Source: Acidovorax delafieldii (GTDB lineage Bacteria > Pseudomonadota > Gammaproteobacteria > Burkholderiales > Burkholderiaceae_C). From it: a DNA stretch of 64,000 nucleotides. How positions within the stretch are numbered: position 1 is the first letter of the stretch; each line of letters opens with the position of its first letter. Below the pieces are notes generated by a model. The model saw only the letters and a list, made by a program, of their open reading frames with translations, had not been told where the DNA came from and searched no databases. Positions 980 to 56,642 of the stretch are shown piece after piece. A program made the position numbers and the translations under genes. The stretch is from contig NZ_VJWE01000001.1 of assembly GCF_007993815.1 (NCBI RefSeq), forward strand, positions 62,001-126,000, written 5' to 3'.

Positions 980-1028
980 CGGGCCCGCGCCGCTGCCCAC
1001 ACCGCCGTGCAGGCGCCCGGCGACTCCA

Positions 1029-1094
1029 TTTCAAGCCTTATCGACCGATAGCGCTAGTGCAATATGCCTGAATAGCTATAAAATATGTAGCAAA
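1029..1094. repeat. Dispersed Comamonadaceae-type intergenic repeat, copy 1
   Basis: AT-rich stretch between convergent genes with the words TCAAGCCTTAT, GATAGCGCTAGTGC, AATAGCTAT and GTAGCAAAT. The same words in the same order recur at 28985-29046 and 59928-59992. Confidence 0.75.
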
Positions 1095-12687: not shown

Positions 12688-13524
12688 TCACTGCGCCGCG
12701 TTCGGGAAGAACAGCTGCTCGCCACCAATCTTGTAGCCCGCAATCGCCTGCTGGCCGGCGGGAGACACCACCCAGTCCACAAACTTCTGCGCGTCCTGCG
12801 ACTTCAGATGGGGGTGCTTGGCGGGGTTCACGACCATCACGCCGTACTGGTTGAAGAGCTTGGTGTCGCCCTCGACCAGAACGGCCAGGTCCGCGCGGTT
12901 CTTGAAGTTGAGCCAGGTGCCACGGTCGGCCAGCACATAGGCGCCGCTTGACGCCGCGATGTTGAGCGCTGGCCCCATGCCGCAGCCACATTCCTTGTAG
13001 CCGCTGCCTTTTGAGGTATTTGCAGCCTCGGCACCGGCCAGCTTCCAGTAGCGCAGCTCGGCCGCGTGGGTGCCGCTCTTGTCGCCGCGCGAGATGAAGT
13101 TGCCATTGGCGGCAGAGAGCTTCTGCAGCGCTTGCACGATGTCTTTGCCTTTGGTACCCACCGGGTCGTTCTTGGGGCCGATGAGGATGAAGTCGTTGTA
13201 CATCACGGGGTAGCGCTTCACGCCCCAGCCATCGGCCACAAACTTTTCTTCGGCCACCTGGTCGTGCACGAACAGCACGTCCGCGTCGCCCCGGCGTGCC
13301 ATATCGAGCGCCTGCCCCGTGCCCAGCGCCACCACCTTGATGTCCAGGCCGCTGGCCTTCTTGAACTCGGGCAGCAGGTAGCCAAACAGGCCCGACTGCT
13401 CGGTCGAGGTGGTGGAGGCCATGGTGATGCTCTGCGCAAACGCTGAACCCGACGCTACCAAAACAATAGCTGTCAGCGCTTTGGACACTAGCGCTACCGC
13501 GCGAAAAGGCTTGAAATTTTTCAT
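12688..13524 (-). CDS. tupA: Tungstate ABC transporter substrate-binding protein TupA
   Basis: 278 residues with a cleavable signal (about 1-29, ending SGSAFAQ) and the TupA hallmark TTSTEQSGLFGYLLP at the mature N-terminus, which forms the tungstate site. GTGQALDMARRGDADVLFVHD is also typical. I place the start at 13524, where the signal peptide begins. An in-frame ATG at 13608 has a better ribosome site (AAAGGAG) and overlaps the tupC stop, but would add 28 residues encoded by a repeat. The signal-peptide DNA (13459-13520) itself matches the dispersed Comamonadaceae repeat. It follows tupC and precedes the ModA-like gene. Confidence 0.92.
   Translation of the reverse strand: MKNFKPFRAVALVSKALTAIVLVASGSAFAQSITMASTTSTEQSGLFGYLLPEFKKASGLDIKVVALGTGQALDMARRGDADVLFVHDQVAEEKFVADGWGVKRYPVMYNDFILIGPKNDPVGTKGKDIVQALQKLSAANGNFISRGDKSGTHAAELRYWKLAGAEAANTSKGSGYKECGCGMGPALNIAASSGAYVLADRGTWLNFKNRADLAVLVEGDTKLFNQYGVMVVNPAKHPHLKSQDAQKFVDWVVSPAGQQAIAGYKIGGEQLFFPNAAQ
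13459..13520. repeat. Dispersed repeat, copy 2, inside the tupA signal-peptide codons
   Basis: Read on the minus strand it gives AATTTCAAGCC, then GGTAGCGCTAGTG, AAGCGCTGACAGCTAT and TGTTTTGGTAGC, the ordered words of the intergenic copies elsewhere in the window. Here they are in frame and encode residues of about 2-24 of TupA. Confidence 0.7.
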
Positions 13525-13602
13525 CGCCGGGCCGCCCCAAGATGAAAAGGCCCCCTTGGGGGGCAGTGACCACACGAAGTGGGAAGCGTGGGGGTCAATT
13601 CG
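13525..13602. repeat. Second intergenic repeat type upstream of tupA
   Basis: The stretch holds the GC hairpin CCCCCTTGGGGGG (13551-13563) and GACCACACGAAGTGGGAAG. This recalls a frequent Comamonadaceae intergenic repeat (recognised from memory). It remains an open frame in phase with tupA. Confidence 0.5.
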
Positions 13603-13604
13603 CG

Positions 13605-14333
13605 TCATACCAGCTCTCCTTTGACAAACAATCGGGCGGCCTCCGGCAGGGGGCCATTGAAAAAGTCGTGCACCGGCAAGTCCGCCACCAGACGGCCGTG
13701 CTCCATGTAGATCACGCGGCTGGCCAGGCGCTTGACCTGGCCCAGGTTGTGGCTGCTGAACACCATGGTCACGGGGTGTGCCGGGCCGGCCGCGCCGTGG
13801 CTGGCCGCAAAGTCGGCCATCAGGGCCTCGACCTCGCGCTTGGCATGGGGGTCGAGGCTGGCGGTGGGCTCATCGAGCAGCAGCACATCGGGCCGCAGGG
13901 CCCATGCACGGGCCAGCGCCACACGCTGCTGCTGGCCGCCCGACAGGGTGCGCGCGTTCTGCGCTGCAATGCCCTGCAGGCCCACCCGCTGCAAGGCCGT
14001 CAGGGCCAGCGGGCGCGCATCGCGCCAGCGGGTGCCGCGCAGCCACAGGGCCAGGGCCACGTTGTTCTGGGCACTGGTGCGCAGCATGTGCGGGCGCTGG
14101 AACAGCATGGCCTGGCGCAGCGACGCATCGCATTGCAGGCCGCCCCCATGCGTGTCGGCCAGGCCATGCAGCACGCGCAGCAAAGTGCTCTTGCCACTGC
14201 CATTGGCGCCCACCAGCGCCACGCGCTCGCCGGGTGCGATGCGCAGCGTGACCTGGTCCAGCGCCTGCACGCGGCCGTAGCGCACGGTCACCTGCCGCAG
14301 GTCCACCCAGGGGGTTGGCAAAGGCCCGCTCAT
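13605..14333 (-). CDS. tupC: Tungstate ABC transporter ATP-binding protein TupC
   Basis: 242-residue ABC ATPase. Walker A is GANGSGKST (about 42-50), the Q-loop is LFQRP, the signature is LSGGQQQR, Walker B is LLLDEPTASLD, and the H-loop is FSSHN. It powers uptake through TupB at the inner membrane. It overlaps tupB by four bases at its start. Its stop overlaps an alternative tupA ATG. The assignment to tungstate, not sulfate or molybdate, rests on the TupA neighbour. Confidence 0.93.
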   Translation of the reverse strand: MSGPLPTPWVDLRQVTVRYGRVQALDQVTLRIAPGERVALVGANGSGKSTLLRVLHGLADTHGGGLQCDASLRQAMLFQRPHMLRTSAQNNVALALWLRGTRWRDARPLALTALQRVGLQGIAAQNARTLSGGQQQRVALARAWALRPDVLLLDEPTASLDPHAKREVEALMADFAASHGAAGPAHPVTMVFSSHNLGQVKRLASRVIYMEHGRLVADLPVHDFFNGPLPEAARLFVKGELV

Positions 14334-25370: not shown

Positions 25371-25423
25371 ATACGGCGGCAAAACCCTGCCAATCTGCAG
25401 GCCCGCCGTGGTCTGCTCTCATT

Positions 25424-25472
25424 ACAATAGCTGCCAGTGCTTAAAAAATAAGCGCTGGCAGCTATTTTCATT
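25424..25472. repeat. Dispersed repeat, copy 4, forming a terminator-like hairpin
   Basis: AATAGCTGCCAGTGCTT (25426-25442) pairs with AAGCGCTGGCAGCTATT (25450-25466) with one mismatch, followed by a T-rich run. It separates the Rieske oxygenase and DMT genes and is nearly identical to the copy at 50571-50609. Confidence 0.85.
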
Positions 25473-25510
25473 TTTGCGCCCCACGGCGCGCTTCAAAAGA
25501 TCACAACCCG

Positions 25511-37872: not shown

Positions 37873-38700
37873 ATGGGCACCTCAGCGCCCCGGGTCATCG
37901 TCACACGCCCTGCCCGCGAAGCGGCGCATTGGGTGGCGCAACTGGGCGCACACGGCATTGAGGCCGTGGCACTGCCCCTGATTGCGATTGGTCCCTGCAC
38001 GGACACCACCATGAAACAGGCGCTGGACTTGGCCCGCGCCAACGTCGGCACCTACCGCGCTCTGATGTTTGTCAGTGGCAACGCCGTGGCGCACTTCTTT
38101 GAGCCAAATCACCCTGTAGCGCTGGATATTCATGCCCTGGCAGCTACAAAAACAAGAGCATGGGCGCCCGGCCCAGGCACCACCCGCGCGCTGGAGCAGG
38201 CCGGCGTGCCGTCCAACGCCATCGACGGGCCCGCGCCCGATGCACCGCAGTTCGACTCCGAGGCTCTGTGGCAGCAGGTGGCCCCCCAGGTGCGGCCTGG
38301 CGACCGCGTGCTGATCGTGCGCGGTCGCTCCGCCACGCCGCAGGACGCACACGAATCGCCCCAGGGCAATGGCCGCGAGTGGCTGGCCCAGCAGATCGAG
38401 GCGCGGGGCGGTCACGTGGAGTTTGTGGTGGCCTACCAACGCGGCGCGCCCCGCTTCACGGCCCAGGAGGTGGCGCTGGCGCAACAGGCGGCGCACGACG
38501 GCGCTGTCTGGCTGCTGAGCAGCTCCGAGGCGGTGGCCCACCTGGCCGAGGCCCTGCCCGGCCAATACTGGGGCGCAGCACAGGCGCTGACCACCCACCC
38601 GCGCATCGCCGAAGCAGCCCGCGCAGCGGGCTTTGGCACCGTGCGGGAATGCCGTCCGGCGCTGGAAGACGTGGTGGCCTCGATAGAATCGGCCGCATGA
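37873..38700 (+). CDS. hemD: Uroporphyrinogen-III synthase
   Basis: 275 residues. It cyclises hydroxymethylbilane with inversion of ring D. The family pattern is weak as usual, with VIVTRPAREA at the N-terminus, LMFVSGNAVAHFF and PGPGTTRALEQAG. Residues about 80-94 (HPVALDIHALAATKT) are encoded by a copy of the dispersed repeat and fall where related proteins have a short loop. It starts immediately after hemC and overlaps hemX by ATGA. Confidence 0.93.
   Translation: MGTSAPRVIVTRPAREAAHWVAQLGAHGIEAVALPLIAIGPCTDTTMKQALDLARANVGTYRALMFVSGNAVAHFFEPNHPVALDIHALAATKTRAWAPGPGTTRALEQAGVPSNAIDGPAPDAPQFDSEALWQQVAPQVRPGDRVLIVRGRSATPQDAHESPQGNGREWLAQQIEARGGHVEFVVAYQRGAPRFTAQEVALAQQAAHDGAVWLLSSSEAVAHLAEALPGQYWGAAQALTTHPRIAEAARAAGFGTVRECRPALEDVVASIESAA
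38110..38156. repeat. Dispersed repeat, copy 6, inside hemD
   Basis: Contains TGTAGCGCTGGATATT, CCTGGCAGCTAC and AAAAACAAG, resembling the intergenic copies at 25424, 50562 and 56593. It keeps frame through hemD and is markedly AT-richer than flanking codons. Confidence 0.6.
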
Positions 38701-56559: not shown

Positions 56560-56592
56560 GGCAAAAACACCGCCTTTGCGGTGTTTTTGCCT
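56560..56592 (+). terminator. Hairpin after gcdH
   Basis: A 14-bp stem GGCAAAAACACCGC (56560-56573) / GCGGTGTTTTTGCC (56578-56591) with T-run in the right arm; probably a terminator or a 3' stabiliser within the operon. Confidence 0.75.
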
Positions 56593-56642
56593 TGTAGCGC
56601 CAGTCAATCATGCGCTGACAGCTATCAATTTCATAGTACACC
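56593..56642. repeat. Dispersed repeat, copy 10
   Basis: TGTAGCGCCAGTCAATCATGCGCTGACAGCTATCAATTTCATAG: ordered words GCGC...GCGCTGACAGCTAT as in copies 2, 4 and 8. It lies directly before the CoA transferase gene and may carry its promoter. Confidence 0.75.

Follow-up and report, generated by a model that had tools for sequence, protein, structure and literature searches.

A dispersed REP-like repeat as the probable source of the TupA signal peptide in Acidovorax delafieldii

Random sequence is widely regarded as a ready source of signal peptides, but few of them can be traced to their origin. Protein segments derived from repeats are, as such, already known, among them intragenic repetitive extragenic palindromic (REP) sequences, Rickettsia elements, and the RU-2 element of Yersinia. 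In the sections of the literature drawn on here, intragenic REPs are on record in other species, with the argument that many of those at N termini may escape translation (PMC3733652); REP doublets forming hairpins (REPINs) persist together with single-copy, vertically inherited REP-associated tyrosine transposases (RAYTs) (PMC8049555; PMC3116915); Rickettsia palindromic elements (RPEs) are inserted in frame in protein genes (PMC2229807); and miniature inverted-repeat transposable elements (MITEs) form predicted signal peptides, above all that of YPO1552 in Yersinia (Delihas 2007; PMC2759123, PMC2229807), and, as RU-1f, predicted membrane segments (PMC2759123). Here, we analyze the start of tupA in a 64,000-nucleotide stretch of the Acidovorax delafieldii genome (contig NZ_VJWE01000001.1, positions 62,001 to 126,000; below, the window), where a dispersed repeat of ~63 nucleotides (nt) coincides with the DNA coding for the signal peptide. 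From sequence comparisons, we conclude, with a probability of roughly 85%, that this signal peptide is an old, domesticated copy of the REP-like repeat and that the same type of event took place elsewhere.

The start of TupA and the dispersed repeat

On the minus strand, tupC is followed by tupA, and the repeat copy (Table 1) makes up codons 3 to 24 of the short form of TupA, directly after Met-Lys. It codes for the residues N-F-K-P-F-R-A-V-A-L-V-S-K-A-L-T-A-I-V-L-V-A, and the start as a whole, MKNFKPFRAVALVSKALTAIVLVASGSAFA/QS, has by eye a Sec-type layout, with a charged n-region, a hydrophobic h-region, and A-X-A at an assumed cleavage place. The codon usage score of the signal region is untypical (-0.25, versus 0.65 for the whole gene).

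Within the window, the 16-mer AATAGCTGTCAGCGCT has six matches with up to three mismatches, versus 0.52 expected, a number reached in 0 of 100 shuffles. A BLAST search of the tupA stretch against its own genome gave 40 scored places at E ≤ 10, tupA counted, and the 30 that were retrieved align without internal gaps over ~63 nt. Profile R1, built from 22 of the aligned copies with tupA and seven others left out, recovered at least 150 places in the 5.02-Mb genome, all with E < 1e-9. The original prediction that the TupA signal codons share words with a dispersed repeat was thus borne out by a full-length copy, which R1 finds at E = 8.6e-14. In the 555 kb that surround copies, a weight matrix detects 186 copies scoring >18, 174 scoring ≥40, and 173 scoring ≥45; 78 of the 174 have no coding-overlap call, and many of the remaining ones merely abut a gene. 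Copies occur on both strands and in intergenic, N-terminal, internal, and C-terminal places. In many of them, one frame per strand is open and joins a charged, start-like stretch to a hydrophobic run, reading F-K-P-x-x-x-x-A-L-V-x-x-A-L-x-A-I-V-L-V/I-A on the forward and I-A-A-S-A-L-x-T-S-A on the reverse strand. An imperfect hairpin (-12.35 kcal/mol, with no compensatory changes) is common to ten genome consensus strings.

Signal peptides rich in Ala and Leu might happen to resemble a translated repeat, whose open frames are themselves hydrophobic. When the TupA peptide was kept fixed and its codons were redrawn 20,000 times from the usage of the genome, the recoded versions did reach a mean weight matrix score of 18.1 (standard deviation, 6.5), but their maximum was 45.9, compared with the observed 72.0. 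The observed score beats every synonymous recoding, and the likeness therefore lies at the DNA level. The other 20 coding copies chosen, soluble proteins included, also exceed all of their own recodings (z = 4.2 to 9.2 for the 21). All 21 come from the N-terminal and internal rows of the coding census described below; the other such rows were dropped because the start codon lies only inside or after the repeat or because the gene probably starts downstream (for example, at contig positions C10:177570, C2:365677, C10:118573, C10:57793, C1:991043, C9:142578, C1:527645, C4:249503, C1:152855, C6:47362, C12:8797, C15:3117, and C4:204949, along with reverse-strand frame 0 and the remaining frame 1 rows). 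As a background, 48 loci (192 kb) of repeat-free genomes gave a top score of 6.5. The start regions of tupA, DsbD, and M16 peptidase genes in repeat-free genomes score -14 or less, except for two tupA starts (loci L074, 12.5, and L076, 17.2); no R1 copies were found in either of these two genomes, and the weak starts could be old remnants or chance. Recoding and the repeat-free background together leave practically no room for chance similarity at tupA. The proposal that repeat DNA was turned into a functional export signal is strongly supported as far as repeat DNA coding for a predicted signal peptide is concerned.

To place this copy among its relatives, we compared 81 loci, consisting of the best 80 of 575 confirmed orthologous loci and the window. 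The tupA starts score above 10 in 52 loci, below -15 in 26, and between these values in 3; all those scoring above zero use frame 0, and in most of them the distance to the mature part is exactly 84 nt (range, 72 to 108). Among 44 genomes searched with R1, those with a tupA score of >20 all carry the repeat (31/31, with 4 to at least 118 copies), and those with a score of <-15 carry 0 or 1 copy (11/11). The same signal peptide in genera that lack the repeat family, which would have argued for chance, did not appear among the clear cases of either kind. The copy sits in nearly one register in Acidovorax, Simplicispira, Diaphorobacter, Rhodoferax, Polaromonas, and Ottowia; a near-identical register across six genera implies that it is not recent. 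In one metagenome-assembled genome (L382/L383; G003:C195), the tupA copy is found at two mirrored places with identical letters, which may be an inverted assembly duplicate.

Translation might instead start further downstream and leave the repeat part of tupA untranslated, as portions of Di Nocera et al. (2013; PMC3733652) argue for N-terminal REPs of several species. This is very unlikely here: in most orthologues the tupC-coupled ATG opens the repeat part, and otherwise the start would fall inside or after the signal peptide; all orthologues scoring above zero share the same frame; and in PurL and MoeA, where the copies are internal, the repeat has to be translated.

Table 1. Positions of the tupA locus features and of the repeat copies in the window
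Feature	Position	Strand	Basis
tupA, long reading frame (306 amino acids [aa]), ATG overlapping the tupC stop	12688-13608	-	Open frame; Pfam PBP_like_2, E = 1.9e-40
tupA, short reading frame from internal ATG (MKNFKPF...), equivalent of the form in most orthologues	12688-13524	-	Orthologue comparison
Full-length ~63-nt repeat copy, TupA signal peptide coding DNA (NFKPFRAVALVSKALTAIVLVA)	13453-13518	-	BLAST, profile R1, weight matrix
Second dispersed repeat, between tupC-coupled ATGACG and internal ATG	13525-13602	-	Genome search, relatives
tupC; TGA overlaps upstream tupA ATG (ATGA, 13605-13608)	13605-14333	-	Sequence
Shine-Dalgarno-like AAAGGAG in the 3' end of tupC, preceding the coupled ATG	13616-13622	-	Read from sequence
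Repeat copy	1028-1092	+	R1 (C10:63028-63092)
Repeat copy	25414-25479	-	Weight matrix score, 50.6
Repeat copy within the frame of hemD (FFEPNHPVALDIHALAATKTRA), read in forward frame 0	38095-38160	+	Census, Pfam, recoding test
Repeat copy	56575-56638	+	R1 (C10:118575-118638)

Copies in other genes and genome-specific variants

Coding copies in this genome were listed in a census that used a home-made codon score and Pfam rather than a gene finder, and the signal peptides and membrane helices among the repeat-coded segments were assigned by eye. Predicted signal peptides arise from forward frame 0 in TupA, a TctC receptor, an amidohydrolase, and a DUF2147 protein and from the reverse strand in DsbD, an M16 peptidase, a SIMPL protein, and the product of a gene at C3:267589, which has a sub-threshold DUF4198 match only. 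Copies are also present in the membrane proteins CobS, CbiB, and UbiA and in frame in MoeA, PurL, an HI0933-like flavoprotein, an APH-family kinase (which we take to be SrkA), a molybdopterin oxidoreductase (presumably formate dehydrogenase), AroE, and HemD; UvrD, ornithine carbamoyltransferase, and a metallopeptidase-like protein are presumably encoded by further repeat-bearing genes. The hemD copy, in the gene for uroporphyrinogen-III synthase, lies in the window.

We searched 30 genomes for moeA, purL, and the DsbD and M16 genes. Of the 20 repeat-bearing genomes that could be classified, all but G022, whose site is empty, have a repeat-coded MoeA loop between GRPMAVGR and VLFGLPGNP (19 of 20), versus none of 8 repeat-free ones, with G018 and G040 left unclassified because they gave a paralogue match only; filled loops are ~22 aa longer (53 to 64 positions as cut, versus 30 to 37 in unfilled loops). 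PurL is repeat coded in 22/22 versus 0/8 genomes, three of the positives being weak (9.7, 12.1, and 15.7), and the usual net gain is 4 aa. For the DsbD signal peptide the counts are 22/22 versus 0/5, three genomes having no match; where a genome gave two or three matches, some were set aside (three loci and one additional match in all). The M16 signal peptide is repeat coded in 19/21 versus 0/7 genomes, with two genomes lacking a match and two exceptions, G008 and G041, scoring 0 and 2. In the Ottowia beijingensis GCS-AN-3 assembly (L272), the open frame of PurL breaks in two where the repeat lies, which could reflect a real frameshift or a sequencing error.

The repeat comes in variants that differ among genomes. 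The loop variant GCGCTAGTGNNNNATGC occurs 122, 88, and 28 times in genomes G000, G002, and G005 and 0 or 1 time in each of 36 others. GCGCTTRTCNNNNAAGC occurs 11, 16, and 63 times in the same three genomes; in G001, G003, and G040, for example, its counts are 177, 232, and 284, although a near-palindromic site may have been counted on both strands. Reversed-pattern controls for the loop variants gave 0 to 2 per strand. Coding copies partly follow the dialect of their own genome, as judged from their sequences. All three coding copies of G000 (tupA, purL, and moeA) carry AGTG, as do two of the three in G002, where purL has GGTG; ACCGC is found in all three G004 genes and in 7 of 12 sampled G004 places; and AGCCC is shared by all three genes of both G021 and G023 and by 8 of the 11 places sampled in G021, moeA itself being among the 8. 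Among 33 gene copies from 11 genomes, the matrix of the own genome had a mean rank of 3.48 of 11 and came first 12 times, and 2 of 20,000 joint relabellings gave a mean rank as low. Without G005, it came first in 12 of 30 with a mean rank of 2.73 of 10 (1 of 20,000 relabellings as low). Each consensus rests on 6 to 10 copies per genome, and ten genomes were sampled, with bias, by the top matches to the profile of the A. delafieldii genome studied here.

These variants bear on whether gene segments that already existed were overwritten in place, in a gene-conversion-like manner by single-stranded repeat DNA, and still are by the current variant. We regard such ongoing overwriting as possible though doubtful. 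It would fit the gap-free alignment of the copies, the small net length changes at tupA, PurL, and M16, the presence in G000, G004, and G021/G023 of coding copies with the variant common in the same genome, and the better-than-chance ranks; some repeat-free M16 and PurL sites, moreover, already resemble parts of the repeat by eye (IAIKN; YQKS), as would be expected if similar DNA were overwritten. However, MoeA shows a true gain, the own genome came first for little more than a third of the copies, and AGCCC also appears singly in other genomes (G007 moeA, G010 tupA, and G036). The own matrix ranks 9 to 11 for the three G005 genes, although G005 copies were picked with the biased profile, and 7 to 8 for tupA in G002, G004, and G011. 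A related, equally tentative suggestion is that single-stranded copies made by a resident RAYT convert partly similar sites, so that signals and loops would evolve in concert with the repeat; if true, a change of repeat dialect would alter the sequences of TupA, PurL, and MoeA together.

Parallel selection on a binding site would leave a similar pattern of variants. The repeat might be a selected site for a protein or RNA, serving chromosome organization, mRNA control, or an uptake-like function, with the signal peptide as a tolerated by-product. We consider this unlikely: long persistence, a conserved hairpin core, and variant switching that includes coding copies agree with it, but the scatter of copies over both strands and over intergenic, N-terminal, internal, and C-terminal places does not, and a binding site does not predict recurrence at signal peptides. 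Nor did positions 13400 to 13700 of the window, which contain the tupA stretch, give any match to a known RNA family (Rfam, up to E = 1).

Second repeat, transposase, and proposed origin

The original prediction also described a second repeat-like stretch directly upstream of the signal codons, in frame with an ATG that is coupled to the stop codon of tupC. This held up: the stretch is dispersed, with five more strong matches elsewhere in the genome (E = 9.8e-15 to 5.8e-8), while its 16-mer core is not overrepresented within the window (3 matches versus 2.69 expected). From the coupled ATG, 28 open codons cross the GC-rich stretch before the internal ATG opens MKNFKPFRAVALVSKALTAIVLVASGSAFA/QSITM. 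Four relatives (L033, L037, L038, and L039) read ...AAAGGAGARCTGGTATGACG followed directly by the signal peptide, without the second repeat. The window, L031, L032, L035, and L036 have 84 to 87 extra nt after ATGACG or a similar sequence, in frame and with a new ATG at the end. L034 has two tandem copies that break the upstream frame, so that an internal ATG probably serves there. Words of the second repeat occur in the tupC-tupA gap of 6 of 80 loci having tupC, window included, and thus the insert is not private to this genome. ATGA flanks it on both sides at tupA, and the Shine-Dalgarno-like AAAGGAG still precedes the upstream ATG. In the window, translation may still begin at that ATG, which would add 28 aa, or the internal ATG may be the only one in use; between the window and L031, silent and replacing changes in the extension are by eye similar in number. 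A recent change of translation start had been proposed as well. The start context was indeed altered by the second repeat, as the relatives without it show, but the signal peptide copy itself is not recent. By eye, an ATGAC stretch directly precedes the second repeat at tupA and in two other copies from the same genome (L111, L114, and L116), and the second repeat, too, may act at gene starts.

A gene of 228 to 246 aa similar to the transposase of G000 was found in 33/33 genomes searched, all of which have a Y1 transposase match. The G000 protein passes NCBIfam NF047646 (REP-associated tyrosine transposase) with 84.5 bits against a cutoff of 80. A forward repeat copy, often degenerate and ending in TGTCCC, lies over the transposase stop codon in 13/24 repeat-rich, 1/2 low-copy, and 0/7 repeat-free genomes, as called by a masked score of ≥13, a cutoff set after the scores were seen. 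Its end, TGTCCCC or TGACCCC, fits on the opposite strand the motif GGGGWSAS, given for TIR-type transposase genes in the part of Di Nocera et al. (2013; PMC3733652) drawn on here. Close copies on both sides of the gene were found in G040 only. Near the transposase start of a Diaphorobacter genome (L327; G032), a repeat copy shares the frame of what may be an extension of the transposase itself at its N terminus. Acidovorax temperans DSM 7270 (G011) has 37 Y1_Tnp matches, mostly identically scoring IS200-like frames of 153 aa.

These observations suggest the following course of events. Mobilization of single-stranded hairpins by a transposase is established for other REPs, and the repeat would most likely have been spread in this way by the resident RAYT. 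Copies may arrive by insertion, as at MoeA, or by overwriting, as at PurL, tupA, and M16. A copy that lands on or overwrites a gene start in one of the two hydrophobic frames would supply a usable Sec signal, and selection would keep it. Later, the second repeat entered the gap that separates the tupC-coupled ATG from the signal peptide; the upstream ATG, preceded by its Shine-Dalgarno-like sequence, has kept its frame in five loci and lost it in one. Where repeat-free relatives branch from within repeat-rich groups, they would reflect loss of the whole family or repeated gains.

Several points weigh against reading the TupA signal peptide as a domesticated repeat copy. Presence and absence of the repeat follow kinship, and genomes are thus not independent points: on the TupA tree the repeat label is clustered, with 10 changes, at least five of which are forced by well-supported branches. 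Repeat-rich genomes do not form one clade in the PurL tree (approximately unbiased test, p-AU = 0.000178), so that losses or repeated gains are needed; a single origin of the family without loss is supported by neither tree, and in these trees the long branches of G029 and G016 make placements unsure. Repeat-free G016 has a MoeA loop of 50 positions, outside the range of the other unfilled loops. Only MoeA changes much in net length, and the small changes at PurL, tupA, and M16 fit replacement better than simple insertion. Repeat-free genomes, too, have the transposase family, which weakens its presence alone as an explanation of the repeat family. Related genomes may have inherited the copy at its stop codon from a single event, and for this reason the link between repeat and transposase is suggestive.

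Comparison with known systems

The family resembles the REP/REPIN and RAYT systems in being a short, dispersed hairpin repeat of high copy number that lies largely outside genes, and perhaps also in a RAYT gene with a repeat copy at its end in about half of the repeat-rich genomes. REPs measure 20 to 40 bp and carry a GTAG (or CGTC) tag; here, the repeat is ~63 nt long, and the consensus at the tag site is GTAG in G002, CTAG or CTAC in most others, and CAAG in the G000 sample. Unlike REPs, it forms in-frame predicted signal peptides of conserved exported proteins, and its variants are partly common to coding and noncoding copies. The main text of PMC3733652 makes no mention of signal peptide, Acidovorax, Comamona, Delftia, Polaromonas, or Rhodoferax.

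As with RPEs, in-frame copies lie in conserved genes (moeA and purL) whose relatives lack them at the site. RPEs are 105 to 146 bp long and belong to obligate intracellular alphaproteobacteria, whereas the present element is shorter and lives in free-living Betaproteobacteria; it also differs in that either of its strands can give a predicted export signal. A possible identity for the second repeat is the betaproteobacterial repeat element (BRE), which the part of Hot et al. (2011; PMC3110155) used here describes as 75 to 91 bp long with ~69% GC and lists in Acidovorax, Polaromonas, Delftia, and others. The two are alike, by description, in length, GC, and hosts; the 63-nt repeat differs from BRE by its length.

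The repeat also has a counterpart in mobile resistance-integron cassettes on enterobacterial plasmids. There, the DUF1010 (PF06231) domain of one annotated open reading frame starts with ~22 residues that equal the repeat in forward frame 1, a setting with no link to export. The 63-nt consensus matches 1,813 plasmid records at E ≤ 0.01, and copies lie in integron regions at L490:1156-1401, L492:861-2522, and L491:1499-1564. The DUF1010 frame is annotated in L490, and L492, an IMP-1 plasmid, has six copies spaced ~319 nt apart. As a warning, REP-like "intergenic" repeats may be coding, and a Pfam domain can begin with a translated repeat.

The closest precedent for a repeat-formed signal peptide, in the portions of the literature cited above, is the enterobacterial RU-1/RU-2/RU-3 group of MITEs. 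Many of those cases, as far as described there, are small or hypothetical proteins, and most examples stay inside one genus; here, the conserved proteins TupA, DsbD, and M16 peptidase are affected over many genera, and repeat-free relatives have a different sequence at the site. Several conserved proteins throughout a bacterial family thus have predicted export signals taken from one or the other strand of a single repeat family, with the repeat-free relatives as natural controls. Both the birth of new export signals and a possible concerted rewriting of conserved proteins by mobile repeats become open to test. As far as the cited papers go, what is new relative to them is the involvement of conserved exported proteins, the use of both strands, the family-wide comparison of sites, and the dialect concordance of coding copies.
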